Shown in pieces: positions 4,374 to 63,579 of a stretch of DNA of 64,000 bases. The DNA is from Terebella lapidaria. Lineage: Eukaryota > Annelida > Polychaeta > Terebellida > Terebellidae. The stretch is taken from positions 20,063,170-20,127,169 of the forward strand of contig OX424569.1 of the NCBI GenBank assembly GCA_949152475.1, written 5' to 3'. The stretch's first letter is position 1; each line of letters begins with the position of its first letter. The translations under genes were made by a program, and so were the position numbers. The notes below the pieces were generated by a model. That model had not been told where the DNA came from and did not search any database. It was given only the letters and a program-made list of their open reading frames with translations.

Positions 4374-5888
4374 TTTGATTTGATTTGATTTATTTCAGTC
4401 ATTCATACATGAAAATATATACAATAAATACATACAGAACATGATGAACATCTAAGGATTGCACACGAAAGTGCCAGGCACTTATTTCCAGTGCGGTCCT
4501 TGTTGAGATGACAAAATGGAGAATTGGTGAACAGGGGTTAAAAATATTTAGACAGACAAACCACAGATATTGAAAAGTTAATAGTACAAAAATTTGTTAG
4601 ATTCCGATTCCGGAGCCCTTGCTTGAAGGAAGGATTTTACCATACATTTAAATTGTGACTTTGAGTTCACACTGTGAATAGAGGGTGGTATTAGATTCCA
4701 AACCATGACTACTTGATATGAGAAATTACACTTTGAACTATTTAAATCATAAAATTTTGCCTATATTGGTGGTAATAGATTGATACTTACATACTTACTA
4801 CTTGTGGGACTGCATAGTTAACATTTGCATTTCTAGTATTGTGACTTGATTGACTGGATACACGGGTAAAAAGGTTTTGTAGATACTTGGATGCTGTTCC
4901 TGAATGGATGTTATACATATGATTAATCATGATTTGGTGAACCCTGTCTGATTTGGCAATACCAACTCTATTGAGTCCCTCTTGGCCTATGTGAGATCTG
5001 GGATCCAGGCAAAGGATAAACCTAACCATTTTGTTTTGTGACACCTGTAGTTGTTGTGTACATCGTTTTGTTAGGCTTGAATACCACGCAGACACCCCAG
5101 TTGAAATAACATTGTAGAAGTGCCATTGATAATAGTTTGTGTGCCTTAAAATTGAGAACGTTTTTGTGCCTGTCCCAGATATTTTATACTTGTGTTTGCG
5201 GTTATTGTATGATTTTGACATTTGATAACAAAGTTATCATTGCCTCTGTTTTGCCCATATGCATTGAGAGATTATTATTGGTAAGCCAGTGATAACAATT
5301 AGAGATTGCGTCACTGAGTTTCTCAGAGACTACGTTATGGTTTTTATCATTTACCAGTAATATAGTGTCATCAGCGTACAAGATCATGGAGCAGGATACA
5401 CAGGTTGGCATGTCATTGCTATACACAAGGCAGCACCATGGCCCCAGGACACTGCCTTGAGGCACACCACATTTGATAGTTTGTTGTGAAGACATACAGC
5501 CATTAGCTGTGACAATTTGTTTCCGAGAGTGTAAATATGAATGAAACCAGTCGGGTTCAATACCTGCGAGTTCGATTTTTTCCAGTAACATATTATGATT
5601 GACACTGTCGAAGGCCTTTTGAACATCAAGTGCTACGAGGCCGACAAAATTACCTTTACTTATTTCTGTTCTTATGAGATACTGGAGATAAAGAAGACAC
5701 GTGTCGGTGGAGTAGTGGCCTCTAAATCCATACTGGAGAGGATATAGAATATTGTGTTTTCTACAGTGAGATTCAACTTGGGAGTGTACCAATTTCTCAA
5801 GAATTTTTGACAGAGTTGTCAAGACACTTACTGGTCGGTAGTTTTCTACATACATATTTGTTGTTTTTACATACAATGTTGTACTCAC
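4374..5888 (-). pseudogene. 5'-truncated non-LTR (LINE) retrotransposon
   Basis: On the minus strand the frame from 5888 down to 5202 encodes an apurinic-endonuclease-class LINE reverse transcriptase, starting abruptly at NYRPVSVL. Motifs in order are QYGFRGHYSTD, ALDVQKAFDSVNH (motif A), CGVPQGSVLGP (motif B), ILYADDTILL (motif C, catalytic DD present) and KTEAM (motif D). A frameshift near 5205-5225 moves into a second frame (5221-4787) encoding the C-terminal region with SAWYSSL and QVSQNKMVRFIL. Compared with intact CR1/L2-like proteins, a stretch between RT and this tail is shortened. The 3' end is a short ATCAA-type simple repeat at about 4374-4395, as in CR1/L2-type tails. Endonuclease and ORF1 are missing, so the copy is 5'-truncated and inactive. 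The clade (CR1/L2 group) is inference. Confidence 0.85.
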
Positions 5889-6360
5889 TGAGTAGGTCTA
5901 ACTAGATTCTAGATGTCCTGAGTAAATGATTCTCTAGTAGAAATTCAAGTGTCGACCTTCTCGTGAAATAGATTCACATTTCTCAGATGTCATGACGACA
6001 TATCTCTACTAAATACGGTCACTTCATTGGTGTTTTTGTCGTGTGTTTATTTGTCATCTTGGTTCCTGTGATTTTGTGAAAATACTGTAGCAAGTGGTTA
6101 CTTGAGTCAGCTTTGGAAAACCTTGCACGACTTTATCATTACTCTTGTTCTGTTTCCCCTGCATTTCCCCTGAAAACCGCAATGATTTTCTCAGTAGATC
6201 CATTACACATAAAGTTAATCTGTCAGTGAAAAAGGTTTTTTGGCCCGTATTTTTGTTGAGGCTCATCGTATCAACTTGAAATTTTGTGTGCCTCAATTGG
6301 GTATCGTGCCGAAATTTTTGGTCGTATAAAAGGCTGGGCGATTGGCCTACTTTGTGGCAG
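5889..6360. other. Non-coding spacer
   Basis: AT-rich sequence upstream of the LINE truncation point. It has only short random frames and no recognised motif. Confidence 0.35.
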
Positions 6361-12528: not shown

Positions 12529-15391
12529 AGGTTACCGGACCTATGGTCCGATAACCTATTGGCGTGGCGTTGCGTCCGTCGTCCGTCGTCGTCGTCGTCG
12601 TCCACATTTTTATCTTTTTTGTTTACGGGCGAATTTTTCTGAAATTTTGCACAAAAATACTTAAAAATAATTCAAGAAGGAGGTATTTTTTAGTTTTTTA
12701 GGTTACCGGACCTATGGTCCGATAACCTATTGGCATGGCGTTGCGTCCGTCGTCCGTCGTCCGTCGTCGTCCGTCGTCGTCCGTCGTCGTCGTCGTCGTC
12801 GTCCACATTTTCATCTTTTTTGTTTACGGGCGAATTTTTCTGAAATTTTGCAGAAAAATACTTAAAAATAATTCAAGAAGGAGGTATTTTTTAGTTTTTT
12901 GATTTTCGCATTTTTTTCAAAATGGCGGCCGTTTTCGACGAAAAATGCCTGATTTTGGACTTTGGCGGCCATTTTCTCAAAATCTGTTCAGTAACTTTTT
13001 TTCTTTTTGATACATAAGACTCCTCATATGTACTTCTATGTTGTCTATAAATTTCGTTGCGCTTGAATCGCTCGAAGTGGGCCATTTTGGCCCAAACTCG
13101 GCCCAAATGGGACTTTCCCATGTTAAATTCTCCTATGCTTTATAATGGGACACATTATGCCTAATATCTCACTTGATATTGAGATTAGAGACTAGGAATC
13201 AATTGTGGACATATAGGAAATGATATATGCTGAATATTCTCGTGACCTTGAATTTGACCTCTGACCTCAGTTTCAAGGTCAGAGCACAAAATGGCTTATA
13301 TCTCGCTTATTATCGACTCTACAGCTTAGGAATCAATTGTGGACATATAGGAAATAATATATGCTGAATATTCTCGTGACCTTGAATTTGACCTTTGACC
13401 TCAGTTTCAAGGTCAGAGCACAAAATGGCTTATATATCGCTTATTATCGACTCTACAGCTTAGGAATCAATTGTGGACATATAGGAAATGATATATACTG
13501 AATATTCTGATGACCTTGAATTTGACCTTCGAACTCATTTTCAAGGTCACAGGACAAAATGGCTAATATCTCGCTTGTTATCGACTTTACATCTTGGAAA
13601 TCAATTATGAACATATAGGAAATGATATATGCAGATTATTGTCATGACCTTGAATTTGACCTTTGACCTCATTTTCAAGGTCACAGGACAAAATGGCTAA
13701 TATCTCACTTATTATCGATTTTACAGCTTAGGAATCAATTGTGGACATATAGGAAATGATATATGCTGAATATTCTCGTGACCTTGAATTTGACCTCTGA
13801 CCTCATTTTCAAGGTCCAAGGACAAACTGGCTCATATCTAGCTCCTCTATTGACTGTATGGCTTGGGAATCAATTGTGGACATGATATAGGAAATGATAT
13901 ACATTGAATATTTTGATGATCTTGAATTTGACCTTTGCCCTTTCATTTCCAAGGCCACAGCACAAAATTGCTGATATCTCTCTGATTATTGAATTTACGG
14001 CTTAGCAATCAACTGTGGACATGATATATGCTTAATGTTATATATGCTGAATATTCTCTTGACCTTGAATTCAAGCAGTGACCTGGCTAACATCTAAAAT
14101 ATTAAACATTGTCCGGTAACCTATCTTTGGCCCTTGGCCTAATTTTTATTTTCACATTTTTTTCAAAATGGCGGCCGTTTTCGACGAAAAATGCCTGATT
14201 TTGGACTTTGACGGCCATTTTCTCAAAAGCTGTTCAGTAACTTTTTTTCTTTTTGATACATAAGACTCCTCATATGTACTTCTATGACGTCTATAAATTT
14301 CGTTGCGCTTGAATCGCTCGAAGTGGGCCATTTTGGCCTAAACTCGGCCCAAATGGGACTTTCCCATGTTAAATTCTCCTATGCTTCATAATGGGACACA
14401 TTATGCCTAATATCTCACTTGATATTGAGATTAGAGACTAGGAATCAATTGTGGACATATAGGAAATGATATATGCTGAATATTCTCGTGACCTTGAATT
14501 TGACCTCTGACCTCAGTTTCAAGGTCAGAGCACAAAATGGCTTATATCTCGACTCTACAGCTTAGGAATCAATTGTGGACATATAGGAAATAATATATGC
14601 TGAATATTCTCGTGACCTTGAATTTGACCTCTGACCTCAGTTTCAAGGTCAGAGCACAAAATGGCTTATATCTCGCTTATTATCGACTCTACAGCTTAGG
14701 AATCAATTGTGGACATATAGGAAATGATATATACTGAATATTCTGATGACCTTGAATTTGACCTTCGAACTCATTTTCAAGGTCACAGGACAAAATGGCT
14801 AATATCTCGCTTGTTATCGACTTTACAGCTTAGCAATCAATTATGAACATATAAGAAATGATATATGCAGATTATTGTCATGACCTTGAATTTGACCTTT
14901 GACCTCATTTTCAAGGTCACAGGACAAAATGGCTAATATCTCACTTATTATCGATTTTACAGCTTAGGAATCAATTGTGGACATATAGGAAATGATATAT
15001 GCTGAATATTCTCGTGACCTTGAATTTGACCTCTGACCTCATTTCCAAGGTCCAAGGACAAACTGGCTCATATCTTGCTCCTCTATTGACTGTATGGCTT
15101 GGGAATCAATTGTGGACATGATATACATGATATAGAAAATGATATACACTGAATATTTTGATGACCTTGAATTTGACCTTTGCCCCTTCATTTTCAAGGC
15201 TACAGCATAAAATTGCTAATATCTCTCTGATTATTGAACTTACAGCTTAGCAATCAACTGTGGACATGATATATGCTTAATGTTATATATGCTGAATATT
15301 CTCTTGACCTTGAATTCAACCAGTGACCTGGCTAACACCTAAAATATTAAACATTGTCCGGTAACCTATCTTTGGCCCTTGGCCTAATTTT
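12529..15391 (+). mobile_element. HtA element, core II, interrupted by a nested HtA
   Basis: The head hairpin AGGTTACCGGACC / GGTCCGATAACCT starts at 12529, followed by a GTCGTCGTC microsatellite. After TAGTTTTT at 12699 the element is broken by another HtA (12700-14146) and resumes at about 14147 exactly where it stopped. It then runs through a YY1-like head module and about seven copies of a roughly 134-bp unit. It ends with GTCCGGTAACCT at about 15356 and the hairpin GGCCCTTGGCC. Each unit contains a GTGGACATATAGGAAATGAT word and an inverted TGACCTTGAA ... TTTCAAGGTCA pair. Host and guest are very similar in sequence, so the insertion is probably young. Confidence 0.8.
12700..14146 (+). 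mobile_element. HtA element, core II, nested in 12529-15391
   Basis: This copy is complete: head hairpin at 12700, microsatellite to about 12808, then TTTTGTTTACGGGCGAATTT. The CAAAATGGCGGCC module is at about 12919 and core units with AATCAATTGT lie at 13197, 13331, 13464, 13599 and 13733 (spacing 133-135 bp). The last units are more diverged. The 3' end is GTCCGGTAACC at 14111, hairpin GGCCCTTGGCC, then the T-run. It was inserted into a T-run of the host in the same orientation. Confidence 0.85.
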
Positions 15392-18177: not shown

Positions 18178-20063
18178 CTTTTTTGTTTACTGGCGAATTT
18201 TTCTGAAATTTTGCAGAAAAATACTTAAAAATAATTCAAGAAGGAGGTATTTTTTAGTTTTTTGATTTTCGCTTTTTCTTCAAAATGGCGGCCGTTTTCG
18301 ACGGAAAAGGCCTGATTTTGGACTTTGGCGGCCATTTTCTCAAAATCTGTTCAGTAACTTTTTTTCTCTTTGATACATAAGACTCCTCATATGTACTTCT
18401 ATGATGTCTATAAATTTCGTTGCGCTTGAATCGCTCGAAGTGGGCCATTTTGGCCCAAACTCGGCCCAAATGGGACTTTCCCATGTTAAATTCTCCTATG
18501 CTTTATAATGGGACACATTAAAGCCTAATATCTCACTTAATATTGAGATTAGAGACTAGGAATCAATTGTGGACATATAGGAAATGATATATGCTGAATA
18601 TTGTCGTGACCTTGAATTTGACCTCTGACCTTGTTTTCAAGGTCAGAGCGGCCCTTTTCGTCGAAAAATGGCCAATTTTGGAATTCGACGGTCGTTTTCT
18701 CAAAATCTGTTCAGTAACTTTTTTTCTTATTGATGCATGACACTCCTCCTATGTACCCCTGTGACATGTATAAATTTCGTTGCCCTTGAATCGCTCGAAG
18801 TGGGCCATTTTGGGCCCAAACTCAGCCCAAATGGGACTTTCTCATGTTAAATTCTCCTATGCTTTATAATGGGACACATTAAGCCTAATATCTCACTTAA
18901 TATTGAAATTAGAGACTAGGAATGAATTGTGGACATATAGGAAATGATATATGCTGAATATTCTCGTGACCTTGAATTTGACTTTTGACCTCATTTTCAA
19001 GGTCACAGGACAAAATGGCTAATATCTCGCTTATTATCGACTTTACAGTTTAGGAATCAATTGTGAACATATAGGAAATGATATATGCTGAATATTTTCG
19101 TGATCTTGAATTTGACCTTTGACCTCATTTCCAAGGTCGCAGGACAAAATTGCTAATATCTCGCTTATTATCGACTTTACAGCTTAGGAATCAATTGTGA
19201 ACATATGGGAAATGATATATGCTGAATATTCTCGTGACCTTGAATTTGAGCTTTGACCTCATTTTCAAGGTCACAGGACAAAATGGCTGATATCTTGCTT
19301 ATTAGCGACTTTACAGCTTAGGAATCAATTGTGAACATATAGGAAATGATATATGCTGAAAATGCTCGTGACCTTGAATTTGACCTTTAACCTATTTTCA
19401 AGGTCACAAGACAAAATGGCCAATATCTTGCTTATTAGCGACTTTACAGCTTAGGAATCAATTGTGAACATATAGGAAATGATATATGCTGAAAATGCTC
19501 GTGACCTTGAATTTGACCTTTGACTTATTTTCAAGATCACAGGACAAAATGGCCAATATCTTGCTTATTAGCGACTTTACAGCTTAGGAATTAATTGTGA
19601 ACATATAGGAAATGATATATGCTGAAAATTCTCATGACCTTGAATTTGACCTTTGACCTCATTTTCAAGGTCAACAGGACAAAATGGCTAATATCTTGCT
19701 TATTATCGACTTTACAGCTTAGGAATCAATTGTGACCATATAGGAAATGATATATTCTGAATATTTTAATGATATTGAATTTGACCTTTGACCTAAATTT
19801 CAAGGTCAGTCATTTTATTTTCAAAGTCAGATTACAAAATGGCTTATATCTCGCTTATTATCAAATTTACAGCTTAGGGGTCCATATCATATAGGAAATG
19901 ATGTATGCTGAATAGTTTGGTGATCTAGAATTTAACCTTTGATCCCATTTTCACGGTTAGAGATATGGCGATTTCAGTGGTCACCTTGAATTTGACTTTC
20001 AACTTTCTCGGCTCAACTCTGTATATTTCTCCGGTAACCTTACTAGCCCATTGGGCTCAATTT
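18178..20063 (+). mobile_element. HtA element body, core II
   Basis: The body starts at CTTTTTTGTTTAC without its own head. It carries two successive head modules (18290 and about 18650, each with GTTTTC and TCAAAATCTGTTCAGTAAC). Seven to eight core units of about 133 bp follow. The 3' end TCCGGTAACC at about 20031 with hairpin AGCCCATTGGGCT belongs to a tail subtype shared with 29470-29524, 45140-45190 and 53370-53424. Confidence 0.7.
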
Positions 20064-21393
20064 TATCTTTTTTGTTTACGGGCGAATTTTTCTGAAATTT
20101 TGCACATAAATACTTAAAAATAATTCAACAAGAGGAGTTATTTTTTATTTTTTTGATTTTCGCATTTTTTTCAAAATGGTGGTCGTTTTCGATGAAAAAT
20201 GCCTGATTTTGGATTTTGGCGGCCATTTTCTCAAAATATGTTCAGTAACTTTTTTTCTTTTTGATACATAAGACTCCTCATATGTACTCTTATGATGTCT
20301 GTAAATTTCGTTGCGCTTGAATCGCTCGAAGTGGGCCATTTTGGCCCATACTCGGCCCAAATGGGACTTTCCCATGTTAAATTCTCCTATGCTTTATAAT
20401 GGGACACATTATGCCTAATATCTCACTTGATATTGAGATCAGAGACTAGGAATCAATTGTGGACACATAGGAAATGATATATGCTGAATATTCTCGTGAC
20501 CTTGAATTTGACCTCTGACCTCAGTTTCAAGGTCATAGCACAAAATGGCTTATATCTCGCTTATTATCGACTCTACAGTTTAGGAATCAATTGTGGACAT
20601 ATAGGAAATAATATATGCTGAATATTCTCGTGACCTTGAATTTGACCTCTGACCTCAGTTTCAAGGTCAGAGCACAAAGTGGTTTATATCTCGCTTATTA
20701 TCGACTCTACAGCTTAGGAATCAATTGTGGACATATAGGAAATGATATATGCTGAATATTCTGATGACCTTGAATTTGACTTTCGACCTCATTTTCAAGG
20801 TCACAGGACAAAATGGCTAATATCTCGCTTGTTATCGACTTTACAGCTTAGCAATCAATTATGAACATATAAGAAATGATATATGCAGATTATTGTCATG
20901 ACCTTGAATTTGACCTTTGACCTCATTTTCAAGGTCACAGGACAAAATGGCTAATATCTCACTTATTATCGATTTTACAGCTTAGGAATCAATTGTGGAC
21001 ATATAGGAAATGATATATGCTGAATATTCTCGTGACCTTGAATTTGACCTCTGACCTCATTTTCCAGATCCAAGGACAAACTGGCTCATCCTCTATTGAC
21101 TGTATGGCTTGGGAATCAATTGTGGACATGATATACAAAATGATATACATTGAATATTTTGATGATCTTGAATTTGACCTTTGCCCCTTCATTTTCAAGG
21201 CCACAGCACAAAATTGCTAATATCTCTCTGATTATTGAATTTACAGCTTAGCAATCAACTGTGGACATGATATATGCTTAATGTTATATATGCTGAATAT
21301 TCTCTTGACCTTGAATTCAACCAGTGACCTGGCTAACATCTAAAATATTAAACATTGTCCGGTAACCTATCTTCGGCCCTTGGCCTAATTTTT
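20064..21393 (+). mobile_element. HtA element body, core II
   Basis: A second headless body begins ATCTTTTTTGTTTACGGG. It has one head module, core units at about 20452, 20586, 20719, 20853 and 20988, then the diverged last units. It ends GTCCGGTAACC at about 21358 with hairpin GGCCCTTGGCC. The head at 15610 may belong to this copy. Confidence 0.7.
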
Positions 21394-22564: not shown

Positions 22565-24202
22565 AGGTTACCGGACCTATGGTCCGATAACCTATTGGCA
22601 TGGCGTTGCGTCCGTCGTCCGTCGTCCGTCGTCGTCCGTCGTCGTCGTCGTCGTCCACATTTTTATCTTTTTTGTTTACAGGCGAATTTTTCTGAAATTT
22701 TGCACAAAAATACTTAAAAATAATTCAAGAAGGATGTATTTTTTAGTTTTTTGATTTTCGCATTTTTTTCAAAATGGCGGCCGTTTTCGACGAAAAATGC
22801 CTGATTTTGGACTTTGGCGGCCATTTTCTCAAAATCTGTTCAGTAACTTTTTTTCTTTTTGATAAATAACACTCCTCATATGTACTCCTATGATGTCTAT
22901 AAATTTCGTTGCGCTTGAATCGCTCGAAGTGGGCCATTTTGGCCCAAACTCTGCTCAAATGGGACTTTCCCATGTTAAATTCTCCTATGCTTTATAATGG
23001 GACACATTATGCCTAATATCTCACTTGATATTGAGATTAGAGACTAGGAATCAATTGTGGACATATTGGAAATGATATATGCTGAATATTCTCGTGACCT
23101 TGAATTTGACCTCTGACCTCACTTTCAAGGTCAGAGCACAAAATGGCTTATATCTCGCTTATTATCGACTCTACAGCTTAGGAATCAATTGTGGACATAT
23201 AGGAAATGATATATTCTGAATATTCTCGTGACCTTGAATTTGACCTCTGACCTCAGTTTCAAGGTCAGAGCACAAAATGGCTTATATCTCGCTTATTATC
23301 GACTCTACAGCTTAGGAATCAATTGTGGACATATAGGAAATGATATATACTGAATATTCTGATGACCTTGAATTTGACCTTCGACCTCATTTTCAAGGTC
23401 ACAGGACAAAATGGCTTATATCTCGCTTATTATCGACTTTACAGCTTAGCAATCAATTATGAACATATAGGAAATGATATATGCAGATTATTGTCATGAC
23501 CTTGAATTTGACCTTTGACCTCATTTTCAAGGTCACAGGACAAAATGGCTAATATCTCACTTATTATCGATTTTACAGCTTAGGGATCAATTGTGGACAT
23601 ATAGGAAATGATATATGCCGAATATTCCCGTGACCTTGAATTTGACCTCTGATCTAATTTTCAAAGTCAACAGCACAAAATGGCTAATATCTTGCTTATT
23701 ATCGACTTCACAGGTTAGAAAATCAGTTGTGGATGTATAGGAAATGATATACGCCGAATATTCTGATGACTTTGAATTTGACCTTGTTCTCCATCTTCAA
23801 GGTCATAGGAAAAAATGGCTAAAATCTCACTTATCGACTTTACAGCTTACAAATCAATGACCTCATTTTCAAGGTCAAAGCACAAAATGGTTAATATCTC
23901 GTTTATTATCGAACTTACAGCTTTGCAATCAATTGAGCACATATATTATTTGATATATGCTGAACATTCTCATGACCTTCAATTTGATCTCATCTCCAAG
24001 GTCAGAACACAAAATCGTTAATATCTTGCTCATTGTCAATTTTGCAGCTTAGGAAAATCAATTGTGGACATGAAATGATATATGCTGAATATTCTTGTGA
24101 CCTTGAATTTGACCTTGTTGTCAAGGTCTCGGGACAAAATGGCTAATATATAAAATGTAAAACATTGTCCGGTAACCTTTCTTAGCCCTTGGGCTAATTT
24201 TT
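22565..24202 (+). mobile_element. HtA element, core II, complete
   Basis: Complete copy: head hairpin at 22565, GTCGTCCGTCGTC microsatellite, CAAAATGGCGGCC module at about 22771, then nine or more units of about 134 bp that decay towards the 3' end. It ends GTCCGGTAACC at about 24167, hairpin TAGCCCTTGGGCTA, T-run. The left flank is single-copy DNA ending in a T-run (CATGTTTTT), which gives a clean left junction outside other repeats. Confidence 0.85.
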
Positions 24203-26215
24203 CTTTCATAATGGGAGCTGCCAGAACTGTACTCCTAGAACGCTTGAAGATAGATCTCAGAAATTGGCACTTTCAAATGGGAAGTCATATATGGCGACTT
24301 GTGTGGTGACCTTGAACTTGACCTTGGATGACCTTGAAAGGTCAAAACAGCCATTTTGGTTTCGAAAAATGCCCAAATTTGCACCTGGTCTGTCTTTTCT
24401 CAGAAACTCGGAAACTGATCAGTTTTGAGATTTTTGTTTGAGAAGATTCCCCCTATGTACCTTTATGATGTGTATAAGTTTTGTTGCCCTTGAGTCGCCG
24501 GTCTCCATGTGGTGGCCATTTTGAATTTTTGACAGGTCAGCGAAAAAATTTTTTTTTGCCCCAAATCGCATTACTATTCATTTTGGGTGATTTCTAGAAA
24601 AATTTTCACCCTTTGAAAAAAGTTTTGGACACTTTTTTCCTTCATAATGGGAGCTGCCATAACTGTACTCCCAGAACGCCTGAAGATACGAGCTTAGAAA
24701 TTGGCACTTTCAAATGGGAAGTCATATATGGCGACTTGTGTGGTGACCTTGATTTTGACCTTGGATGAGCTTGAAAGGTCAAAACAGCCATTTTGGGGTG
24801 AAAAATGCCTGAATTTGCACCTTGTTTGTCTTTAATTGAAAACTGTCTAATCACTTTTGAGATTTTTATTTCAAAACATAGTAATTGGGGTTTTTGACAT
24901 TGTGTATGAAGATGGAGTGCCTTGAATTGCTCAAAAGGCTCGAAATCTAGGCTCAAAATGCCCCAAATTTAATTTTTGGTCGTTTTCCTTTAAAATTGTG
25001 TGATCAGTGTCGAGATTTTTGTTATAAAACATGCTAATTGGGGTCCCTGACATTGTGTATAAAGATGGAATGCTTTGAATTGCTTAAAAGGCCCCTTGAG
25101 CATGTGAATTGGCCTCTACAGCTAAAAAACGTTTGTAGGTATAGCTGGAATTGGAAGTCATATATACCACATCTTTTGGTGACTTGATCTCAGATGACAT
25201 TGAATGCTATATCTCAGTGTCACGTCCAACAAGAAATGTGTAAATTTCATCTGTAGACAAATGACTTGAAGATAGACCTTGTATTCGTATTTTGAACATA
25301 CATGAATACAAGGTTATATGCTGCACACTTAATGATGGCATTGAAGTTCACGAAGATGACCTTGATTGGTTAATCTCACTGTGGTGAGACTGGATGCACT
25401 AACGATCGTTAGTGCATCCCGCAATGGCGAACCCACACGCGGTTCGTTTGAATTTTCTTCATTTTCCCGATAATTACGATTGTGATCGATACATACATAC
25501 ATCTGCTGATTCTTATGCCCACGAAGCAACCGTTCGTTGCAAATACATGGCGATTAATGTTGGTTTGAGCATGAGAAACTCGTCTGAAAAAAAGCCGAAA
25601 GATTCCCTAACGATTGTTTTTGTAAAATCGAAGATTCCCTAACGAAAATGTGAAGATTCCCTAACGATCGTTTCTTTATTAATTCAAATCTACGTTATTT
25701 AAATGTTGAACGTGAAATAAAGTACCAATTGACATGTCTTGATGTGTACAGATGATCTTCTAGTACAGATTTCCTATTTTTAATGTGACATTCGCTTATT
25801 TATGTTGCATAAATCAACGAATTCACAATGGTGTATGATATGGACCTATTACAATATACACGTATCAGGCCTATATCGTTAGGGAATCTCACTTTTGTCG
25901 TTGGTGAATCTTGTCGCTAATTCTTTTCCTCAACATATCTAAACAAAAAAGCGTGATCTGCTTGAAATAACTACACATGTCTTTGACCAAAACACTAAAC
26001 TACCTTCGGAGTATCCATTTTTCACAAATGGACCTGTCATTTCATAAAACACGGTCAAAAACCAAACTGACCGTGTTTACTGTCCGCCATTACGGGATGC
26101 ACTAACGATCGTTAGTGCATCCAGTATCACCACAGTGAATCTGAACGTCATATCTCACCTGTTGTGTTTCAACTAAAATTGTCCGGTAACCTATCTTAGC
26201 CCTTGGGCTAATTTT
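24203..26215 (+). mobile_element. HtA element, core III, lacking its head, carrying a Transib-like insertion
   Basis: Core III units begin with TTCATAATGGGAGCTGCC (about 24215 and 24643) and contain TGTGGTGACCTTGA and TCAAAACAGCCATTTTG. They are followed by degenerate units with GATGGAGTGCCTTGAATTGC. The 3' end is GTCCGGTAACC at about 26181 with hairpin TAGCCCTTGGGCTA. It directly abuts the head of the next HtA at 26216. A 761-bp element (25377-26137) is inserted near the 3' end. Confidence 0.7.
25377..26137. mobile_element. 761-bp Transib/RAG-like non-autonomous element
   Basis: The two 45-bp termini (25377-25421 and 26093-26137) are inverse copies with one mismatch. They begin CACTGTGGTG, whose first seven bases fit the Transib terminal consensus CACWRTG and are the inverse of the V(D)J heptamer CACAGTG. 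AATCT flanks both sides (25372-25376 and 26138-26142). Paralogous uninterrupted copies, for example near 42058, carry AATCT only once, so this is a true 5-bp duplication, the size made by Transib and RAG-family transposases. Each terminus also contains a perfect 28-bp palindrome (25392-25419 and its partner) centred on CTAACGATCGTTAG. CCCTAACGA words recur inside (about 25607, 25635, 25659; inverted near 25884). No transposase is encoded. Confidence 0.75.
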
Positions 26216-27143: not shown

Positions 27144-29524
27144 AGGTTACCGGACCTTTGGTCCGTAACCTATTGGCATGGCGATGCGTCCGGCGTCGGC
27201 GTCATCCGTCGTCCGTCAACAATTTTATCTTTAAAGTTTACGATCGAATTTTTCTGAAATTTTGCACAAAAATGCCTAAAAATATTTCGAGAGGGAGGTA
27301 TTTTTTAGTTTTTTGATTTTCGCATTTTTTTCAAAATGGTGGCCGTTTTCGACGAAAAATGCCTGATTTTGGACTTTGGCGGCCATTTTCTCAAAATCTG
27401 TTCAGTAACTTTTTTTTTTATTGATGCATAACACTCCTCATATGTACCCCTGTGACATGTATAAATTTCGTTGCGCTTGAATCGCTCGAAGTGGGCCATT
27501 TTGGGCCCAAACTCGGCCCAAATGGGACGTTCCCATGTTAAATTCTCCTATGCTTTATAATGGGACACATTAAAGCCTAATATCTCACTTAATATTGAGA
27601 TTAGAGACTAGGAATCAATTGTGGACATATAGGAAATGATATATGCTGAATATTGTCGTGACCTTGAATTTGACCTCTGACCTTGGTTTCAAGGTCAGAG
27701 CGGCCGTTTTCGTTGAAAAATGGCCAATTTTGGTCTTCGACGGTCGTTTTCTCAAAATCTGTTCAGTAACTTTTTTTTCTTATTGATGAAAAACACTCCT
27801 CATATGTACCCCTGTGACATGTATAAATTTCGTTGCGCTTGAATCGCTTGAAGTGGGCCATTTTGGGCTCAAACTCGGCCCAAATGTGACTTTCCCATGT
27901 TAAATTTTCCTATGCTCTATAATGGCACACATTAAGCCTAATATCTCACTTAATATTGAAATTAGAGACTAGGAATGAATTGTGGACATATTGGAAATGA
28001 TATATGCTGAATATTCTCGTGACCTTGAATTTGACTTTTGACCTCATTTTCAAGGTCACAGGACAAAATGGCTAATATCTCGCTTATTATCGACTTTACA
28101 GCTTAGGAATCAATTGTGAACATATAGGAAATGATATATGCTGAATATTCTTGTGACCTTGAATTTGACGTTTGATCTCATTTTCAAGGTCACATGACAA
28201 AATGGCTAATATCTCGCTTATTATCGACTTTACAGTTTAGGAATCAATTGTGAACATATAGGAAATGATATATGCTGAATATTTTCGTGACCTTGAATTT
28301 GACCTTTGACCTCATTTCCAAGGTCGCAGGACAAAATTGCTAATATCTCGCTTATTATCGATTTTACAGCTTAGGAATCAATTGTGAACATATAGGAAAT
28401 GATATATGCTGAATATTCTCATGACCTTGAATTCTAGCTTTGACCTCATTTTCAAGGTCACAGGACAAAATGGCCAATATCTTGCTTTTTAGCGACTTCA
28501 CAGCTTAGGAATCGATTGTGAACATATAGGAAATGATATATGCTGAAAATTCTCGTGACCTTGAATTTGACCTTTGACCTCATTTTCAAGGTCACAGGAC
28601 AAAACGGCCAATATCTTGCTTATTAGCGACTTTACAGCTTATGAATCAATTGTGAACATATAGGAAATGATATGTGCTGAAAATTCTCATGACCTTGAAT
28701 TTGACCTTTGACCTCATTTTCAAGGTCACAGACAAAATGGGTAATATCTCGCTTATTATCGACTTTACAGCTTAGGAATCAATTGTGAACATATAGGAAA
28801 TGATATATGCTGAATATTCTCATGACCTTGAATTTGACCTTTGACCTCATTTCCAAGGTCACAGGACAAAATTGCTAATATCTCGCTTATTATCGACTTT
28901 ACAGCTTAGGAATCAATTGTGAACATATAGGAAATGATATATGCTGAATATTCTCATGACCTTGAATTGGACCTTTGACCTCATTTTCAAGGTCACAGGA
29001 CAAAATGGCCAATATCTTGCTTATTAGCACCTTTACAGCTTAGAAATCAATTGTGAACATATAGGAAATGATATATGCTGAATATTCTAGTGACCTTGAA
29101 TTTGACTTTTGACCTCATTTTCAAGGTCAACAGGACAAAATGGCTAATATCTCGCTTATTATCGACTTTACAGCTTAGGAATCAATTGTGAACATATAGG
29201 AAATGATATATTCTGAATATTTTAATGATATTGAATTTGACCTTTGACCTAAATTTCAAGGTCAGTCATTTTATTTTCAAAGTCAGATTACAAAATGGCT
29301 TATATCTCGCTTATTATCAAATTTACAGCTTAGGGGTCCATAGTGAACATATAGGAAATGATGTATGCTGAATAATTTGGTGATCTAGAATTTAACCTTT
29401 GATCCCATTTTCAAGGTTAGAGATATGGCGATTTCAGTGGTCACCTTGAATTTGACCTTCAACTTTCTCGGCTTCACTCTGTATATTTCTCCGGTAACCT
29501 TTCTAGCCCATTGGGCTAATTTTT
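27144..29524 (+). mobile_element. HtA element, core II, nested in HtB
   Basis: The head at 27144 has one base missing from the second arm (GGTCCGTAACCT). Two head modules follow (about 27340 and 27705), then about twelve core units of about 134 bp. The tail is TCCGGTAACC (about 29491) with hairpin AGCCCATTGGGCT. The HtB sequence reads straight across from CCATTTTGATTTTT to GACGAGTCGGC, which defines the T-run target. Confidence 0.85.
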
Positions 29525-32946: not shown

Positions 32947-33757
32947 TTACGGTAGATATATGTTAAGAAATATATGTCATTCTGAAACTGCCAAATTAAA
33001 TATCTGCCAAATAATGTGGGGGGTTCATAACTGCCAAATTTAATAGCCACTAATATTAGTCTTTTTCACAGTATATAGTTGTTTGTAAATTGTGATACAC
33101 ATTTTGTGGTCTACCTAAGGGAAGTTCTGTGTAAGTGAAAACTGCATGTTGACTTTTGTTGAAGCAAAGAGAAGTTTGAAGTCTAATACAATACCCCTCC
33201 CCCCCCCCCCCCCACCTCTTCAATCCTGGCAATAATGTTATATGCTATTGCCAGTATAAAATTGTTACTCCCTCCTTTTCAGCAAGTGTTCGTTTCCTGT
33301 AAGCTATTGATGAAACTTCAAGTCAACAATTCACAGACCATGTTCCGTTTGGATGGACAATAAAAACTGCAGAAAACCATTCGACACTTGTGTCAATTTT
33401 CACATTAAAAACTTGATGTGAAAACTTTTTTTCCCGACTGATTGTGTGAAACTATGACATGTTCTATATAAAATTTGTAACTCAAATTAGGACTGTTGCT
33501 GAAAAGGGACAAGTAATTGATTTGATCATGGCATACCTGATGGTTCATTCACTGCCAAACATGTTTACAATAACATACGGAGGACATGTGTAGAATGGCT
33601 CAATAGAAATCTTGGTCTCTATCAGATGTAATAACTACCAAAAAAAGAATGATTGTGGTTTCTCGGCGTTGCTGACGGTTTTCTCTCTCGGTGGTCGACC
33701 AAGCTGATATCCTGCGCCTATTCACTCCAGACTTGTATTTCCGTGTTTCCTCAACAG
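32947..33757. other. Upstream flank or 5' intron of the ACK gene
   Basis: AT-rich sequence with a CTGCCAAAT word repeated near 32990-33050 and a C-run at about 33194-33213. The last 25 bases read as a 3' splice acceptor: a pyrimidine-rich TATTTCCGTGTTTCCTCAACAG immediately before the ATG. An untranslated first exon probably lies upstream, but I cannot locate it. Confidence 0.45.
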
Positions 33758-33864
33758 ATGGCGTCCGGTGACGCAGATGGGAGCGACTGGCTCCGAGAGT
33801 TACTACAAGAGGTACAACTGGACCAGTTCTATGTTAAACTACGTGACAATCTGCAGGTGACAAG
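33758..33864 (+). CDS. TNK2: ACK/TNK2 kinase, first coding exon (SAM-like domain, N-terminal half)
   Basis: ACK family kinases are cytosolic non-receptor tyrosine kinases that act downstream of Cdc42 and of receptor tyrosine kinases. The exon starts MASGDADGSDWLRELLQEVQ and continues with a KLRDNLQVTR motif. This lines up without gaps with the N-terminal SAM-like domain of vertebrate TNK2 (WLLELL ... LRDDLNVTR). The donor AG|GTCAGT at 33865 leaves two bases of an Arg codon, completed by the next exon. The same frame is open upstream to 33653. I chose the ATG at 33758 because it matches the family start and because TTTCCTCAACAG just before it looks like a splice acceptor. A start further upstream is not excluded. 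The intron after it is 8,957 bp and repeat-filled. Confidence 0.88.
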
Positions 33865-34169
33865 GTCAGTAAAACACTACACAGGGGAAAGCTTGGCAGG
33901 CTCGGATGTTAGTTGTTATGTATCAGCAACTCATAATTATCCTTTACACAAAGCTGTATGCTGTGCACTGGGGGTTACCATGTGATATCTAAAGTTATAT
34001 CTTGAACATTCTCAAAATAGTACACATGTATGTACTGATCATCCCCTAAACCTTAAAGTAATATCTTCAGGGATCGACATTATGCATATGACACCAGTGG
34101 CTCTATATGGCCAGTAACATCTGGAATTTACTGGCCCCAGTTTTTCACTAATAATCAATGCATGCTTGA
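33865..34169. other. Start of ACK intron, single copy
   Basis: AT-rich intron sequence after donor GTCAGT. The first repeat material begins about 300 bp downstream with a 5'-truncated HtA head at about 34170. Confidence 0.5.
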
Positions 34170-36281: not shown

Positions 36282-37889
36282 AGGTTACCGGCCTGGGAAA
36301 AGCTGAAAACGGCCCCTAACCATGGTTTAGGCCAAAAGTTAGATTTTAGGGGCCAGTTTTGCAATTTTAGGGGCCAGTCGAGATAGGAAATTTAACGTGG
36401 GAAAGGCCCGTAAGTCCGTTCCGTCTGCCCGTCCGTCCGTCCGTCCGGCGTTATCATTTTTATCTTTAAAGTTAACGATCGAATCTTTCTGAAATTTTGC
36501 ACAAAAATGCCTAAAAATATTTTGAGAAGGAGGTATTTTTTTGTTTTTTGATTTTCGCATTTTTTTCAAAATGGCGGCCGTTTTTGTCGAAAAACGCTCA
36601 ATTTTGGACTTTGACGGCCATTTTCTCAAAAACTGTCTGATCAGTTTTGAGTTTTTGGTTTCAAAAGATTCCCCTCATATACCTCTGTGATATGTATGAG
36701 TTTGGTTGCCCTAAATCTGCCGGTTTTCGTGTGGCGGCCATTTTGAATTTTTGGCGGGTCGGCGTAAAAAAATTTTTTCGCCCCAAATCGCATTACTATC
36801 CATTTTGGGCCATTTCTAGGCAAAAAAAATTTTCACCCTTTGAAAAAACTTTTGGACTTGGAAAATTTTTGGCACTTTTTTCCTTCATAATGGGAGCTGT
36901 CAGGACTGTACTCATAGAACGCTTGAAGATAGAGCTTAGAAATTGGCACTTTCAAATGGGAAGTCATATATGGCGACTTGTGTGGTGACCTTGAATTTGA
37001 CCTTGGATGACCTTGAAAGGTCAAAACAGCCATTTTTGGGTCGAAAAACGCTCAAATTTGCACCTGGTCTGTATTTTCTCAAAAACTGTTTGATCAGTTT
37101 TGAGATTTTTGCTTAAAAAGATTCCTCTTATATACCTCTGTGACGTGTATAAGTTTTGTTGCCCTTGAATCGCCGATCTCAGTGTGGCGGCCATTTTGAA
37201 TTTTTGACGAGTCTGCGAAAAAAATTTTCTTCGCCCCAAATCGCATTACTATCCATTTTGGGCCATTTCTAGGCAAAAAAAATTTTCACCCTTTGAAAAA
37301 ACTTTTGGACTTGGAAAATTTTCGGCACTTTTTTCCTTCATAATGGGAGCTGTCAGGACTGTACTCATAGAACGCTTGAAGATAGAGCTTAGAAATTGGC
37401 ACTTTCAAATGGGAAGTCATATATGGCGACTTGTGTGGTGACCTTGAATTTGACCTTCGATGACCTTGAAAGGTCGAAACAGCCATTTTGGGGTCAAAAA
37501 ATGTTCAGATTTGCCTCTGTAGATGAAATGCTTGCAGATAGAGCTCATGTTTGCATTATGAACATATAGGAAGACATATATGGCACAACTAATGATGACC
37601 TTGAACTTGACGTCAGATGACCTTGAGTGCCAAATGTCTGACTTGGAATGTGTAAATTGACCTGAGCGGCCTAAACGATTCCACCCAACATATAGAATAT
37701 CAAATGCTGCACACATACATGTAATGGTTACATCGAAGTTCATACGGATGACCTTGATTGGTAAATCCCAAGGTCATATGTTTACACTGCGAACCTTGAT
37801 TGGTAAATCTCAAGGTCTGTTACCTGCCAATGCTGCCATGGCCAAACCAAAATTGTCCGGTAACCTATCTTAGCCTTTGGGCTAATTTT
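36282..37889 (+). mobile_element. HtA element, core III, variant head
   Basis: The head AGGTTACCGGCC (36282) is followed by an unusual segment with GGGGCCAGT words before the CCGTCCGTCCGTCC microsatellite. Core III units start at about 36883 and 37338 (TTCATAATGGGAGCTGTC), about 450 bp apart. The distal part holds GATGACCTTGATTGGTAAAT and TGCCATGGCCAAACC. The 3' end is TTGTCCGGTAACC at about 37853 with hairpin AGCCTTTGGGCT. Confidence 0.75.
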
Positions 37890-39869: not shown

Positions 39870-40675
39870 GGCGTTTGTTTCAAAAGATTCCCCTTATGTA
39901 CCTTTATGATGTGTATAAGTTTTGTTGCCCTTGAATCGCCGATCTCCGTGTGGCGGCCATTTTGAATTTTTGACGAGTCGGCGAAAAACATTTTTTTCGC
40001 ACCAAATCGCATTACTATCCACTTGGACCATTTCTAGGCAAAAAAAAATTTTCACCCTTTACCAAAAACTTTAGACTTGGAAAATTTTCGGCACTTTTTT
40101 CCTTCATTATGGGAGCTGTCAAGACTGTACTCATAGAACGCTTGAAGATAGAGCTTAGAAATTGGCACTTTCAAATGGGAAGTCATATATGGCGACTTGT
40201 GTGGTGACCTTGAATTTGACCTTGGATGACCTTGAAAGGTCAAAACAGCCATTTTGTGGTCAAAAAATGCCCAGATTTGCCTCTATAGCTGAAATTCTTG
40301 CAGATAGAGCTCATGTTTGCATTATGAACATATAGGAAGACATATATGGCACAACTAATGATGACCTTGAACTTGACGTCAGACGACCTTGAGGGCCAAA
40401 TGTCTGACTTGGAATGTGAAAATTGACCTGAGCGGCCTAAACAATTCCACCCAGATATATCTTTGTATTATGAACATATAGAATATCAAATGCCGCACAC
40501 ATGCATGTAATGGTGACATCGAAGTTCACACGGATGACCTTGATTGGTAAATCTCAAGGTCATATGTTTACACTGCAAACCTTGATTGGTAAATCTCAAG
40601 TTCTGTTACCTGCCAATGCTGCCATGGCCAAACCAAAATTGTCCGGTAACCTTTCTTAGCCTTTGGGCTAATTTT
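39870..40675 (+). mobile_element. 5'-truncated HtA element, core III
   Basis: It starts inside core III at GTTTCAAAAGATTCCCC and has one unit (TTCATTATGGGAGCTGTC at about 40103). It runs to the distal part with TGCCATGGCC and the tail TTGTCCGGTAACC at about 40639, hairpin AGCCTTTGGGCT. Confidence 0.7.
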
Positions 40676-41478: not shown

Positions 41479-42140
41479 CTAATTGATGCATAAGACTCCC
41501 CTCACATACCTCTATGATGTGTATAAGTTTTGTTGCCCTTGAATCGCTGCTCTCCGTGTGGCGGCCGTTTTGAATTTTTGACTAGTCGCGAAAAAAATTG
41601 TTTTTGACCCGAATCACATTACTATCCATTTAGGCCATTTCTAGGCGGAAAAAAAATTTCACCCTTTGAAAAAAATTTTGAACTTTTATGGGACAACTAA
41701 TATATGGAACAACTAATGATAACCTTGATCTTGACCTTGGATGACCTTGAGTGCTAAATGTCTGACTTGACATCTGTAAAGTGGCCTCTGAGCCTTAAGC
41801 ACTTGCACATACATACAGGTTAGGATTGTGTATAAGCAGTAAAAAATAAAAAAAGTAATGTATATATATGGCACATCTTTCGGTAACCTTGAACTCGACC
41901 TTAAGCGACCTTGAAGGGCAAATCTGAAAATCTTAAATTGGCCTCTACAAACGAAATACTTGTTGATAAAGCTTATATGTTTGTATTATGAATATATATG
42001 AAGTCATATGCAGCACACCTAATGGAGACAATGAAATTCACAAAGATGACCTTGACTGGTAAATCTCAAAGTCATATGTCACCCTCAATGTTTAAAACCA
42101 AAATTGTCCGGTAACCTATCTTAGCCCTTTAGACATTTTC
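41479..42140 (+). mobile_element. 5'-truncated, diverged HtA core III element
   Basis: A more diverged copy: TTGATGCATAAGACTCCCC at the left, then TGATAACCTTGATCTTGACC and GATGACCTTGACTGGTAAAT. The tail is TTGTCCGGTAACC at about 42106 with an incomplete hairpin. The region near 42058 is the uninterrupted paralogue that proves the 5-bp duplication of the element at 25377. Confidence 0.65.
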
Positions 42141-42971: not shown

Positions 42972-45269
42972 AGCTTACCAGCCCATATGGGCCAATAAGC
43001 TATTGTCGTGGTTTTTCGTCCGTCGTCTGTCCGGCAGATAACTTTTTTTAGGTTACCGGACCTTTGGTCCGTAACCTATTGGCATGGCGATGCGTCCGGC
43101 GTCGGCGTCGTCGTCCGTCGTCCGTCGTCCGTCGTCCGTCGTCGTCGTCCGTCAACAATTTTATCTTTAAAGTTTACGATCGAATTTTTCTGAAATTTTG
43201 CACAAAAATGCCAAAAAATATTTCGAGAGGGAGGTATTTTTTAGTTTTTTGATTTTCGCATTTTTTTCAAAATGGCGGCCGTTTTCGACGAAAAATGCCT
43301 GATTTTGGACTTTGGGGGCCATTTTCTCAAAATCTGTTCAGTAACTTTTTTTTTTATTGATGCATAACACTCCTCATATGTACCCCTGTGACATGTATAA
43401 ATTTCGTTGCGCTTGAATCGCTCGAAGTGGGCCATTTTGGGCCCAAACTCGGCCCAAATGGGACTTTCCCATGTTAAATTCTCCTATGCTTTATAATGGG
43501 ACACATTAAAGCCTAATATCTCACTTAATATTGAGATTAGAGACTAGGAATCAATTGTGGACATATAGGAAATGATATATGCTGAATATTGTCGTGACCT
43601 TGAATTTGACCTCTGACCTTGGTTTCAAGGTCAGAGCGGCCGTTTTCGTCGAAAAATGGCCAATTTTGGTCTTCGACGGTCGTTTTCTCAAAATCTGTTC
43701 AGTAACTTTTTTTTTTATTGATGAAAAACACTCCTCATATGTACCCCTGTGACATGTATAAATTTCGTTGCGCTTGAATGGCTTGAAGTGGGCCATTTTG
43801 GGCCCAAACTCGACCCAAATGTGACTTTCCCATGTTAAATTTTCCTATGCTTTATAATGGCACACATTAAGCCTAATATCTCACTTAATATTGAAATTAG
43901 AGACTAGGAATGAATTGTGGACATATAGGAAATGATATATGCTGAATATTCTCGCGACCTTGAATTTGACTTTTGACCTCATTTTCAAGGTCACAGGACA
44001 AAATGGCTAATATCTCGCTTATTATCGACTTTACAGCTTAGGAATCAATTGTGAACATATAGGAAATGATATATGCTCAATATTCTTGTGACCTTGAATT
44101 TGACCTTTGACCTCATTTTGAAGGTCACATGACAAAATGGCTAATATCTCGCTTATTATCGACTTTACAGTTTAAGAATCAATTGTGAACATATAGGAAA
44201 TGATATATGCTGAATATTTTCGTGACCTTGAATTTGACCTTTGACCTCATTTCCAAGGTCGCAGGACAAAATTGCTAATATCTCGCTTATTATCGACTTT
44301 ACAGCTTAGGAATCAATTGTGAACATATAGGAAATGATATATGCTGAATATTCTCGTGGCCTTGAATTTGAGCTTTGACCTCATTTTCAAGGTCACAGGA
44401 CAAAATGGCCAATATCTTGCTTATTAGCGACTTTACAGCTTAGGAATCGATTGTGAACATATAGGAAATGATATATGCTGAAAATTCTCGTGACCTTGAA
44501 TTTGACCTTTGACTTCATTTTCAAGGTCACAGGACAAAACGGCCAATATTTTGCTTATTAGCGACTTTACAGCTTAGGAATCAATTGTGAACATATAGGA
44601 AATGATATATGCTGAAAGTTCTCATGACCTTGAATTTGACCTTTGACCTCATTTTCAAGGTCACATGACAAAATGGCTAATATCTCGCTTATTATCGACT
44701 TTACAGCTTAGGAATCAATTGTGAACATATAGGAAATGATATATGCTGAATATTCTCATGACCTTGAATTTGACCTTTGACCTCATTTTCAAATTCACAG
44801 GACAAAATGGCCAATATCTCGCTTATTATCGACTTTACAGCTTAGGAATCAATTGTGAACATATAGGAAATGATATATTCTGAATATTTTAATGATATTG
44901 AATTTGACCTTTGACCTAAATTTCAAGGTCAGTCATTTTATTTTCAAAGTCAGATTACAAAATGGCTTATATCTCGCTTATTATCAAATTTACAGCTTAG
45001 GGGTCCATAGTGAACATATAGGAAATGATGTATGCTGAATAGTTTGGTGATCTAGAATTTAACCTTTGATCCCATTTTCAAGGTTAGAGATATGGCGATT
45101 TCAGTGGTCACCTTGAATTTGACCTTCAACTTTCTCGGCTTAACTCTGTATATTTCTCCGGTAACCTTTCTAGCCCATTGGGCTAATTTTTGCCTTGATG
45201 AATTTTTTTCTGAAAATTTACTGAAACATTCTTGGGCAAATACCCTGAGACTTTTTTTTCGGGGTTTTT
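42972..45269 (+). mobile_element. HtB head and body fragment carrying a nested HtA
   Basis: The head AGCTTACCAGCCC / GGGCCAATAAGCT at 42972 is slightly diverged. After AACTTTTTTT (43049) an HtA is inserted. HtB resumes at 45191 with GCCTTGATGAATTTTT and continues to 45269, where another HtA head starts. The HtB 3' end is not seen here. Confidence 0.7.
43050..45190 (+). mobile_element. HtA element, core II, nested in HtB
   Basis: Head at 43050 with the same one-base-short second arm as the copy at 27144. A GTCGTCCGTCGTCC microsatellite, two head modules and about ten core units follow. The tail is TCCGGTAACC at about 45157, hairpin AGCCCATTGGGCT. It is close to 27144-29524 throughout, so both probably derive from one recent source. 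Confidence 0.85.
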
Positions 45270-50575: not shown

Positions 50576-53424
50576 AGGTTACCGGACCTATGGTCCGATA
50601 ACCTATTGGCATGGCGTTGCGTCCGGTGTCGGCGTCGGCGTTCACATTTTTATCTTTTTTGTTTACGGACCAATCTTTCCGAAATTTTGCACAAAAATAC
50701 ACAAAAATAATTCAAGAAGGAGGTATTTTTTAGTTTTTTTGATTTTCACAATATTTTCAAAATGGCGGCCGTTTTCGTCGAAAATCGGCCAATTTTGGAC
50801 TTTGGCGGCCATTTTCTCAAAATCTGTTCAGTAACTTTTTTTCTTTTTTTGCACAAGGATGCCTTATTATGTCCTTCATAATGTGTATCAGTTTCGTTGC
50901 CCTTGATTCGCTGGTCTGCGTGTGGCGGCCATTTTGAATTTGTCGTTTTCGTCGAAAATCGGTCAATTTTGGGCTTTGGCGGCCATTTTCTCAAAATCTG
51001 TTCAGTAACTTTTTTTTTTCTTATTGATGAAAAACACTCCTCATATGTACCCCTGTGACATGTATAAATTTCGTTGCCCTTGAATCGCTTGAAGTGGGCA
51101 AACTCAGCCCAAATGTGACTTTCCCATGTTAAATTTTCCTATGCTTTATAATGGGACACATTAAGCCTAATATCTCACTTAATATTGAAATTAGAGACTA
51201 GGAATGAATTGTGCACATGTAGGAAATGATATCTGCTGAATATTCTCGTGACCTTAAATTTGACCTTTGACCTCATTTTCAAGGTCACAGGACAAAATGG
51301 CTAATATCTCGCTTATTATCGACTTTACAGCTTAGGAATCAATTGTGAACATATAGGAAATGATATATGCTGAATATTGTCATGACCTTGAATTTGACCT
51401 TTGACCTCATTTTCAAGGTCACATGACAAAATGGCTAATATCTCGCTTATTATCGACTTTACAGTTTAGGAATCAATTGTGAACATATAGGAAATGATAT
51501 ATACTGAATATTCTCGTGACCTTGAATTTGACCTTTGACCTCATTTTCAAGGTCACAGGACAAAATTGCTAATATCTCGCTTATTATCGACTTTACAGCT
51601 TAGGAATCAATTGTGAACATATAGGAAATGATATATGCTGAATATTCTCGTGACCTTGAATTTGACCTTTGACTTCATTTTCAAGGTCACAGGACAAAAT
51701 GGCCAATATCTTGCTTATTAGCGACTTTACAGCTTAGGAAGCAATTGTGAACATATAGGAAATGATATCTGCTGAAATTTCTCGTGACCTTGAATTTGAC
51801 CTTTGACCTCATTTTCAAGGTCACAGGACAAAATGGCTAATATCTCGCTTATTATCGACTTTACAGCTTAGGAATCAATTGTGAACATATAGGAAATGAT
51901 ATATGCTGAATATTGTCATGACCTTGAATTTGACCTTTGACCTCATTTTCAAGGTCACATGACAAAATGGCTAATATCTCGCTTATTATCGACTTTACAG
52001 TTTAGGAATCAATTGTGAACATATAGGAAATGATATATGCTGAATATTCTCGTGACCTTGAATTTGACCTTTGACCTCATTTTCAAGGTCACAGGACAAA
52101 ATTGCTAATATCTCGCTTATTATCGACTTTACAGCTTAGGAATCAATTGTGAACATATAGGAAATGATATATGCTGAATATTCTCGTGACCTTGAATTTG
52201 ACCTTTGACTTCATTTTCAAGGTCACAGGACAAAATGGCCAATATCTTGCTTATTAGCGACTTTACAGCTTAGGAATCAATTGTGAACATATAGGAAATG
52301 ATATCTGCTGAAATTTCTCGTGACCTTGAATTTGACCTTTGACCTCATTTTCAAGGTCACAGGACAGAATGGCCAATATCTTGCTTATTAGCGACTTTAC
52401 AGCTTAGGAGTCAATTGTGAACATATAGGAAATGATATATGCTGAAAATTCTCGTGACCTTGAATTTGACCTTTGACCTCATTTTCAAGGTCACAGGACA
52501 GAATGGCCAATATCTTGCTTATTAGCGACTTTACAGCTTAGGAATCAATTGTGAACATATAGGAAATGATATATGCTGAAAATTCTCGTGACCTTGAATT
52601 TGACCTTTGACCTCATTTTCAAGGTCACAGGACAAAATGGCCAATATCTTGCTTATTAGCAACTTTGCAGCTTAGGAATCAATTGTGAACATATAGGAAA
52701 TGATATATGCTGAATATTCTCGTAACCTTAAATTTGACCTTTGACCTCATTTCCAAGGTCACAGGACAAAATTGCTAATATCTCGCTTATTATCGACTTT
52801 ACAGCTTAGGAATCAATTGTGAACATATAGGAAATGACATATGCTGAATATTCTCGTGGCCTTGAAGTTGACCTTTGACCTCATTTTCAAGGTCACAGGA
52901 CAAAATGGCCAATATCTTGCTTATTAGCGACTTTACAGCTTAGGAATCAATTGTGAACATATAGGAAATGATATATGCTGAAAATTCTAGTGACCATGAA
53001 TTTGACTTTTGACCTTATTTTCAAGGTCAACAGGACAAAATTGCTAATATCTTGCTTATTATCGACTTTACAGCTTAGGAATGAATTGTGAAGATATAGG
53101 AAATGATATATTCTGAATATTTTAATGATATTGAATTTGACCTTTGACCTAAATTTAAAGGTCAGTCATTTTATTTTCAAAGTCAGATTACAAAATGGCT
53201 TATATCTCGCTTATTATCAAATTCACAGCTTAGGGGTCCATAGTGAACATATAAGAAATGATGTATGCTGAATAGTTTGGTGATCTAGAATTTAACCTTT
53301 GATCCCATTTTCAAGGTTAGAGATATGGCGATTTCAGTGGTCACCTTGAATTTGACCTTCAACTTTCTCGGCTTCACTCTGTATATTTCTCCGGTAACCT
53401 TTCTAGCCCTTTGGGCTAATTTTA
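50576..53424 (+). mobile_element. HtA element, core II, longest tandem core
   Basis: Complete nested copy: perfect head hairpin, GGTGTCGGCGTCGGCG microsatellite, two head modules and roughly sixteen core units. Several blocks of units are near-identical (for example 51270-51720 against 51810-52260), pointing to recent segmental amplification inside the array. Tail TCCGGTAACC at about 53390, hairpin AGCCCTTTGGGCT. Confidence 0.85.

Positions 53425-62569: not shown

Positions 62570-63579
<1,010 letters not shown>

Follow-up and report, generated by a model that had tools for sequence, protein, structure and literature searches.

The window, that is, the whole 64,000-nucleotide stretch of Terebella lapidaria DNA analysed here (positions 20063170-20127169 of contig C16; genome of 761.6 Mb in 438 contigs), contains a 761-bp non-autonomous DNA transposon at 25377-26137. 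The element is short, has terminal inverted repeats (TIRs) and target-site duplications (TSDs), lacks a transposase gene and belongs to a family of many uniform copies, as is characteristic of a miniature inverted-repeat transposable element (MITE). An initial annotation of the window had linked it to a RAG-like or Transib transposase. The element, its parts and its insertion site are as follows.

25372..25376, no strand: left TSD, AATCT (sequence reading, comparison of family flanks and empty-site alignment)
25377..26137, + strand: non-autonomous DNA transposon of the MITE family, 761 bp (window anatomy; genome copies 95-100% identical)
25377..25429, + strand: left TIR, composed of CACTGTGGTGAGACTGG, the palindrome and CGCAATGGCG (0.55% divergence, 24 copies)
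25392..25419, no strand: 28-bp perfect palindrome of the left TIR (sequence reading and folding as single-stranded DNA)
25599..25667, + strand: three direct copies of AAGATTCCCTAACGA (CCCTAACGA at 25605, 25637 and 25659), putative transposase-binding words (repeats; low divergence)
25875..25889, - strand: inverted copy, ATCGTTAGGGAATCT, of the AAGATTCCCTAACGA/CCCTAACGA word (repeat comparison; low divergence)
26085..26137, - strand: right TIR (1.5% divergence)
26095..26122, no strand: 28-bp perfect palindrome of the right TIR (sequence reading)
26138..26142, no strand: right TSD, AATCT (sequence reading, comparison of family flanks and empty-site alignment)
41954..42129, + strand: related repeat without the insertion (empty site), with a single AATCT at 42062-42066 (junction alignment)

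The two termini are identical at 44 of 45 positions, and the inverted repeat measures 57 bp at 95% identity when one outside base per end is included. The palindrome is GGATGCACTAACGATCGTTAGTGCATCC in both TIRs and is perfect in each, as first annotated, and the 54-nt left end folded as single-stranded DNA with a z-score of -5.5. The CCCTAACGA words comprise the three forward copies listed above and one complement at 25876. The ends are of the CACTGTGGTGA type, with CA..TG termini, and each starts with CACTGTG. The Transib terminal consensus is CACWRTG, and the heptamer of the V(D)J recombination signal sequence is CACAGTG. The proposed fit to CACWRTG is borne out at both termini by the CAC start and the heptamer-like sequence; the proposed likeness to the V(D)J heptamer holds in that CACTGTG is the reverse complement of CACAGTG, but when the end is read inward position 4 differs. 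Of the CACWRTG...CAYWGTG pairs spaced 60-12,000 bp apart in the window, this element alone has an exact 5-bp TSD, and it overlaps none of the listed stop-to-stop open reading frames of at least 100 aa. When its flanks were joined through one AATCT and aligned with 41954-42129, there was no gap at the junction (78% identity over 183 columns), whereas two weaker relatives (40462-40565 and 37704-37779) cover only 11 bases across it. Because the joined flanks meet the empty site without a junction gap, the insertion is real and precise, and the uninterrupted paralogue annotated near 42058 is thereby supported.

A genome-wide search with the 23-bp terminus, allowing up to two mismatches, returned 674 + 677 = 1,351 matches against none for the reversed control pattern, which indicates several hundred copies of the family and supplies the further copies that the initial annotation had proposed to look for. 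A search with the whole element gave 1,128 candidates; the best 40, among them the window copy, were scored and are full or near-full copies with 95-100% identity to the window element. Divergence was measured on 27 aligned copies less three (L005, L021 and L022) whose flanks are the same as those of others. In the remaining 24, the left TIR diverges from the family consensus by 0.55% and the right TIR by 1.5%; the TIRs, palindromes and CTAACGA words all lie within 0-1.8% (0.6-1.2% for the three direct word copies), and the block at 498-540, which includes the inverted word, shows 0.8%, against 2.4-3.5% in the plain interior. Such a pattern would be expected if movement needs the ends and the inner words and if the interior differences mostly predate insertion, having arisen in the source elements. 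The low divergence of the TIRs suggests that the family moved recently, and the description of a non-autonomous cut-and-paste element that was mobile recently and has conserved words in several copies stands. Two groups of copies have shared flanks: L002 and L005 (C4:2320842-2323105), separated by 1.5 kb, have identical flanks and no exact TSD, which would suit a duplication of the whole locus, and L013, L021 and L022 have identical 15-bp flanks on different contigs (C12, C16 and C14), as if carried inside another repeat.

The length of the TSD has been called diagnostic of transposon superfamilies (PMC3706591). We compiled TSDs at 41 loci, 34 with flanks (L001-L028, L061-L065 and L107) and seven junction pairs (L153-L166); L001-L028 and the junction pairs cover 35 of the 40 best-scored copies. 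Exact duplications were present at 36 loci, representing 34 distinct insertions, with lengths of 5 bp in 19 and 6 bp in 15. The two lengths are different registers, and a 6-bp match is therefore not an extended 5-bp match. The AATCT duplication is exact at the window element, as annotated, but 5 bp is not a fixed length in the family. At the 68 half-sites, a C precedes the cut in 43 (background 0.19, binomial p ~2e-15), with 26 of the 38 half-sites of 5-bp insertions and 17 of the 30 of 6-bp insertions; the first duplicated base is A in 41, and C^A occurs at 29, compared with 4.0 expected. These base counts indicate a preferred target of CA-N3-TG or CA-N4-TG, each strand being cut after the C. 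Both TSD lengths are present in both sequence subgroups and also among nearest neighbours, and for this reason the simplest reading of the duplications would be a single enzyme that keeps one half-site but cuts with two staggers.

Taken together, the MITE is very probably a high-copy, recently amplified, non-autonomous cut-and-paste transposon that is moved in trans, with two staggers, by a transposase other than the resident RAG-like one. That transposase, encoded elsewhere, would bind the palindromes of the TIRs and the internal CTAACGA words; the insertion sites show that it joins the ends to the target after a C^A cut on each strand and that it allows two spacings between the cuts, giving duplications of 5 or 6 bp. 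The 19:15 split between 5 and 6 bp in a uniform family that follows a single half-site rule suggests that a transposase's stagger can vary independently of its half-site recognition.

We looked for an autonomous partner of the family among the first 100 exact termini of the 1,351 matches, all on contig C1 and none beyond 87.0 Mb. Among them are 27 neighbouring +/- pairs less than 15 kb apart, 21 of 708-766 bp and six longer. Five of the long pairs (L061-L065) were read whole and are members of the window element's family with other sequence inserted; the sixth, at C1:86255614-86267199, spans 11,586 bp, and its ends (L083 and L084), which alone were read, begin as the MITE. Among the 46 unpaired termini, three are full scored copies and 43 were read in part (38 over 420 bases and five over 230 bases). 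All 45 partly read ends begin as the MITE. In L085 and L090 the MITE resumes past an insertion (in L107 and L106, respectively); L080, L090 and L148 continue into repeats of which the window has many copies, whereas in L084 the continuing sequence is related to L060. Tails past an early stop of the match, unmatched as read, are 117 bases in L103, 70 in L151, 21 in L077 and 17 in L082.

Several points weigh against a recently amplified family moved in trans by one enzyme with two staggers. No autonomous partner was found among these 100 C1 termini, a few loci having been read partly, and termini with mismatches and other contigs lie outside this sample; because no partner was found, we only infer movement in trans. 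The 21 short C1 pairs were classed by length alone. The 40 scored copies are the best matching ones, a sample biased towards similar and probably young copies, and the TSD count leaves out five of them as well as L106. Moreover, five of the 41 loci have no exact duplication: L002 and L005 (with the same flanks), L010, the 5'-truncated L020, and L165. The right end of L010 is altered; AATAA can be seen by eye on both sides and was left out of the count.

The genome also houses elements with a RAG1-like (RAG1L) and a RAG2-like (RAG2L) gene, here called RAGL elements. The RAG1 profile (PF12940) gave 20 matches at E <= 1, 18 of them over the cut-off, in open frames whose length reaches 1,058 aa, and the elements around five RAG1-like matches begin with CACATAGAAACG, not CACTGTGGTGA.

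C7:27373894-27383469 (L049/L050): RAG1L-RAG2L transposon
C14 (L057/L058): RAG1L-RAG2L transposon
C1:85.2 Mb (L055/L056): RAG1L-RAG2L transposon
C9 (L051/L052): RAG1L-RAG2L transposon
C3 (L053/L054): RAG1L-RAG2L transposon

Three copies with both ends fetched, a set that excludes the C9 and C3 copies (right ends not determined), measure 9.4-9.6 kb and have perfect 5-bp TSDs (AAAAG, TAACA and CACAG). Where they share sequence, the C7, C9, C3 and C14 copies show ~98-99% similarity; for the C1 copy the figure is ~90%. In the C7 copy, RAG1L matches the lancelet RAG1L chain of 6b40 at E = 7.5e-175; the same search gave a match to 6pqn, HzTransib, at E = 2.3e-6. The convergent 494-aa RAG2L of this copy matches the 6b40 RAG2L at E = 5.4e-34 and has kelch matches and a PHD match below the cut-off. 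RAGL transposons of this kind have been reported from protostomes (PMC7204232), and the likeness of the copies, their shared CACATAGAAACG ends and the 5-bp TSDs in three of them indicate that RAG1L-RAG2L transposons have probably been recently active in this genome. The C9 copy is inserted inside a MITE copy (L051:1794-1860, with the RAGL start at joined position 1861), 67 bases from the MITE terminus, and this nesting gives the relative order of the two insertions, the MITE copy preceding the RAGL element. A diverged second RAG1L lies at C1:81.37 Mb (L059/L060), with a similar neighbouring frame (~69% in part) and ends not determined.

With such elements resident, the MITE might be a Transib or RAGL derivative moved by the resident RAG1-like transposase or by a Transib as yet unfound. 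The CACTGTG ends that fit CACWRTG, the TIRs and a 5-bp TSD in 19 of the 34 insertions, about half, speak for such an origin, as does the Drosophila Transib target CCANTGG around the 5-bp TSD, which, if centred, has the same C^...^G cut context (PMC3276498). However, Drosophila Transib has a 5-bp TSD in 532 of 533 hopper insertions and 7 of 7 transib2 insertions, 539 of 540 in total (PMC3276498), whereas 15 of the 34 MITE insertions have 6 bp; under an error rate of 1/533 this number has p ~2e-32. The target motif of the MITE family is CA-N3/4-TG rather than CCANTGG. Protostome RAGL elements are described as having TSDs that are "invariably 5 bp" and AAA at TIR positions 8-10 (PMC7204232); the resident RAGL elements likewise have AAA there and CACATAGAAACG ends, unlike the MITE, which has GTG. 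When the 23-bp MITE end was sought with up to five substitutions in the PF12940 loci (L029-L060), the only hit was the MITE copy struck by the C9 RAGL element; no Transib query was used, and PF12940 might miss a true Transib. Duplications of a length other than 5 bp, which the initial annotation had itself named as contrary to its reading, thus occur in these 15 insertions. Since the insertions duplicate 5 or 6 bp, a RAG-like enzyme is probably not the mover, and we do not accept the annotated Transib/RAG identity; an origin of this kind is unlikely. The accompanying suggestion of a recently active RAG-like transposase in this genome is supported, but by the resident RAGL elements and not by the window element. 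A heptamer-like end together with a single 5-bp TSD is thus insufficient for a RAG/Transib call, even where complete RAG1L-RAG2L transposons reside.

Among the other known systems, none of hAT5/hAT6, the CACTA/Mirage/Chapaev/Transib (CMCT) clade and IS3EU fits the MITE fully. Repeated words near the ends, as in the MITE, would suit a hAT element, and the genome contains 149 matches to the hAT dimer domain (150 of 273 candidates scored); it is quite possible, if short of probable, that the MITE is a member of the hAT superfamily from its hAT5/hAT6 groups. Both TSD lengths are known in that lineage, but in PMC12730594 hAT5 (5 bp) and hAT6 (6 bp) are named as separate groups, whereas one family has both here, and the C^A target rule is unlike the NTNNNNAN of hobo (PMC3276498). 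The 11-base MITE terminus, with up to two substitutions allowed, had no credible match at 40 of the 149 hAT 3' ends over 701 or 901 bases downstream. One candidate, L138, was rejected: it matches at 9 of 11 bases, differs in the last base too and has no other similarity. On C1, 20 of 21 hAT hits fall within the span of the listed termini, the nearest being 5.1 kb from a terminus, on its outer side. A relative of the CMCT clade with a stagger relaxed beyond the published range is also possible, if slightly less likely. That clade mostly has CA..TG ends (PMC12730594), as the MITE does, and the cut context resembles that of Drosophila Transib; 6-bp TSDs exceed the 2-5 bp given for it in the same source, no partner was seen, and the CACTA TNP2 domain (PF02992) was reported at one place only in the genome, C59:18000-18380, with a 520-aa open frame on that contig. 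This match could represent a rare element or foreign DNA.

It is very improbable that the MITE is an IS3EU/GingerRoot, Dada or Polinton-type integrase element. TSDs of 6 bp are usual for IS3EU and Polinton, and those of Dada are 6-7 bp, but IS3EU/GingerRoot ends are TA..TA (PMC10045372), at times TG..CA, in contrast to the CA..TG of the MITE; Dada families, which target small RNA genes, include Dada-U6 and Dada-U1 without TIRs, whereas the TIRs of the MITE are long. IS481EU, reported from parabasalids (PMC10045372), shares with the MITE more than one TSD length per family, although its lengths are ~4, 15 and 25 bp and its ends TNT..AYA or TGT..ACA. We would raise only tentatively, and as rather unlikely, a eukaryotic transposase lineage not yet described, perhaps related to CACTA/Transib, which would combine a fixed C^A half-site, cuts 5 or 6 bp apart and recognition of palindromic repeats in long TIRs. 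Among the results listed, literature searches gave no title about this element for the exact terminus strings and no such eukaryotic family for phrases on 5-or-6-bp TSDs; the 23-bp terminus had no match in viral contigs.

Elsewhere in the window, which contains no tRNA and has no Rfam match at the gathering threshold, the frames at 33653-33982 and 62570-62962 match SAM_TNK and a tyrosine kinase domain and may both be exons of a single ACK/TNK2-like host gene that would extend over much of the window. An RVT_1 reverse transcriptase frame at 5205-5897 on the - strand is a retrotransposon fragment. A tandem repeat of 133-134 bp forms eight arrays (13157-15316, 18885-21317, 23009-23858, 27938-29417, 43873-45084, 51167-53164, 54131-55118 and 61122-61772), three of which overlap the end of a two-copy repeat of ~360 bp.
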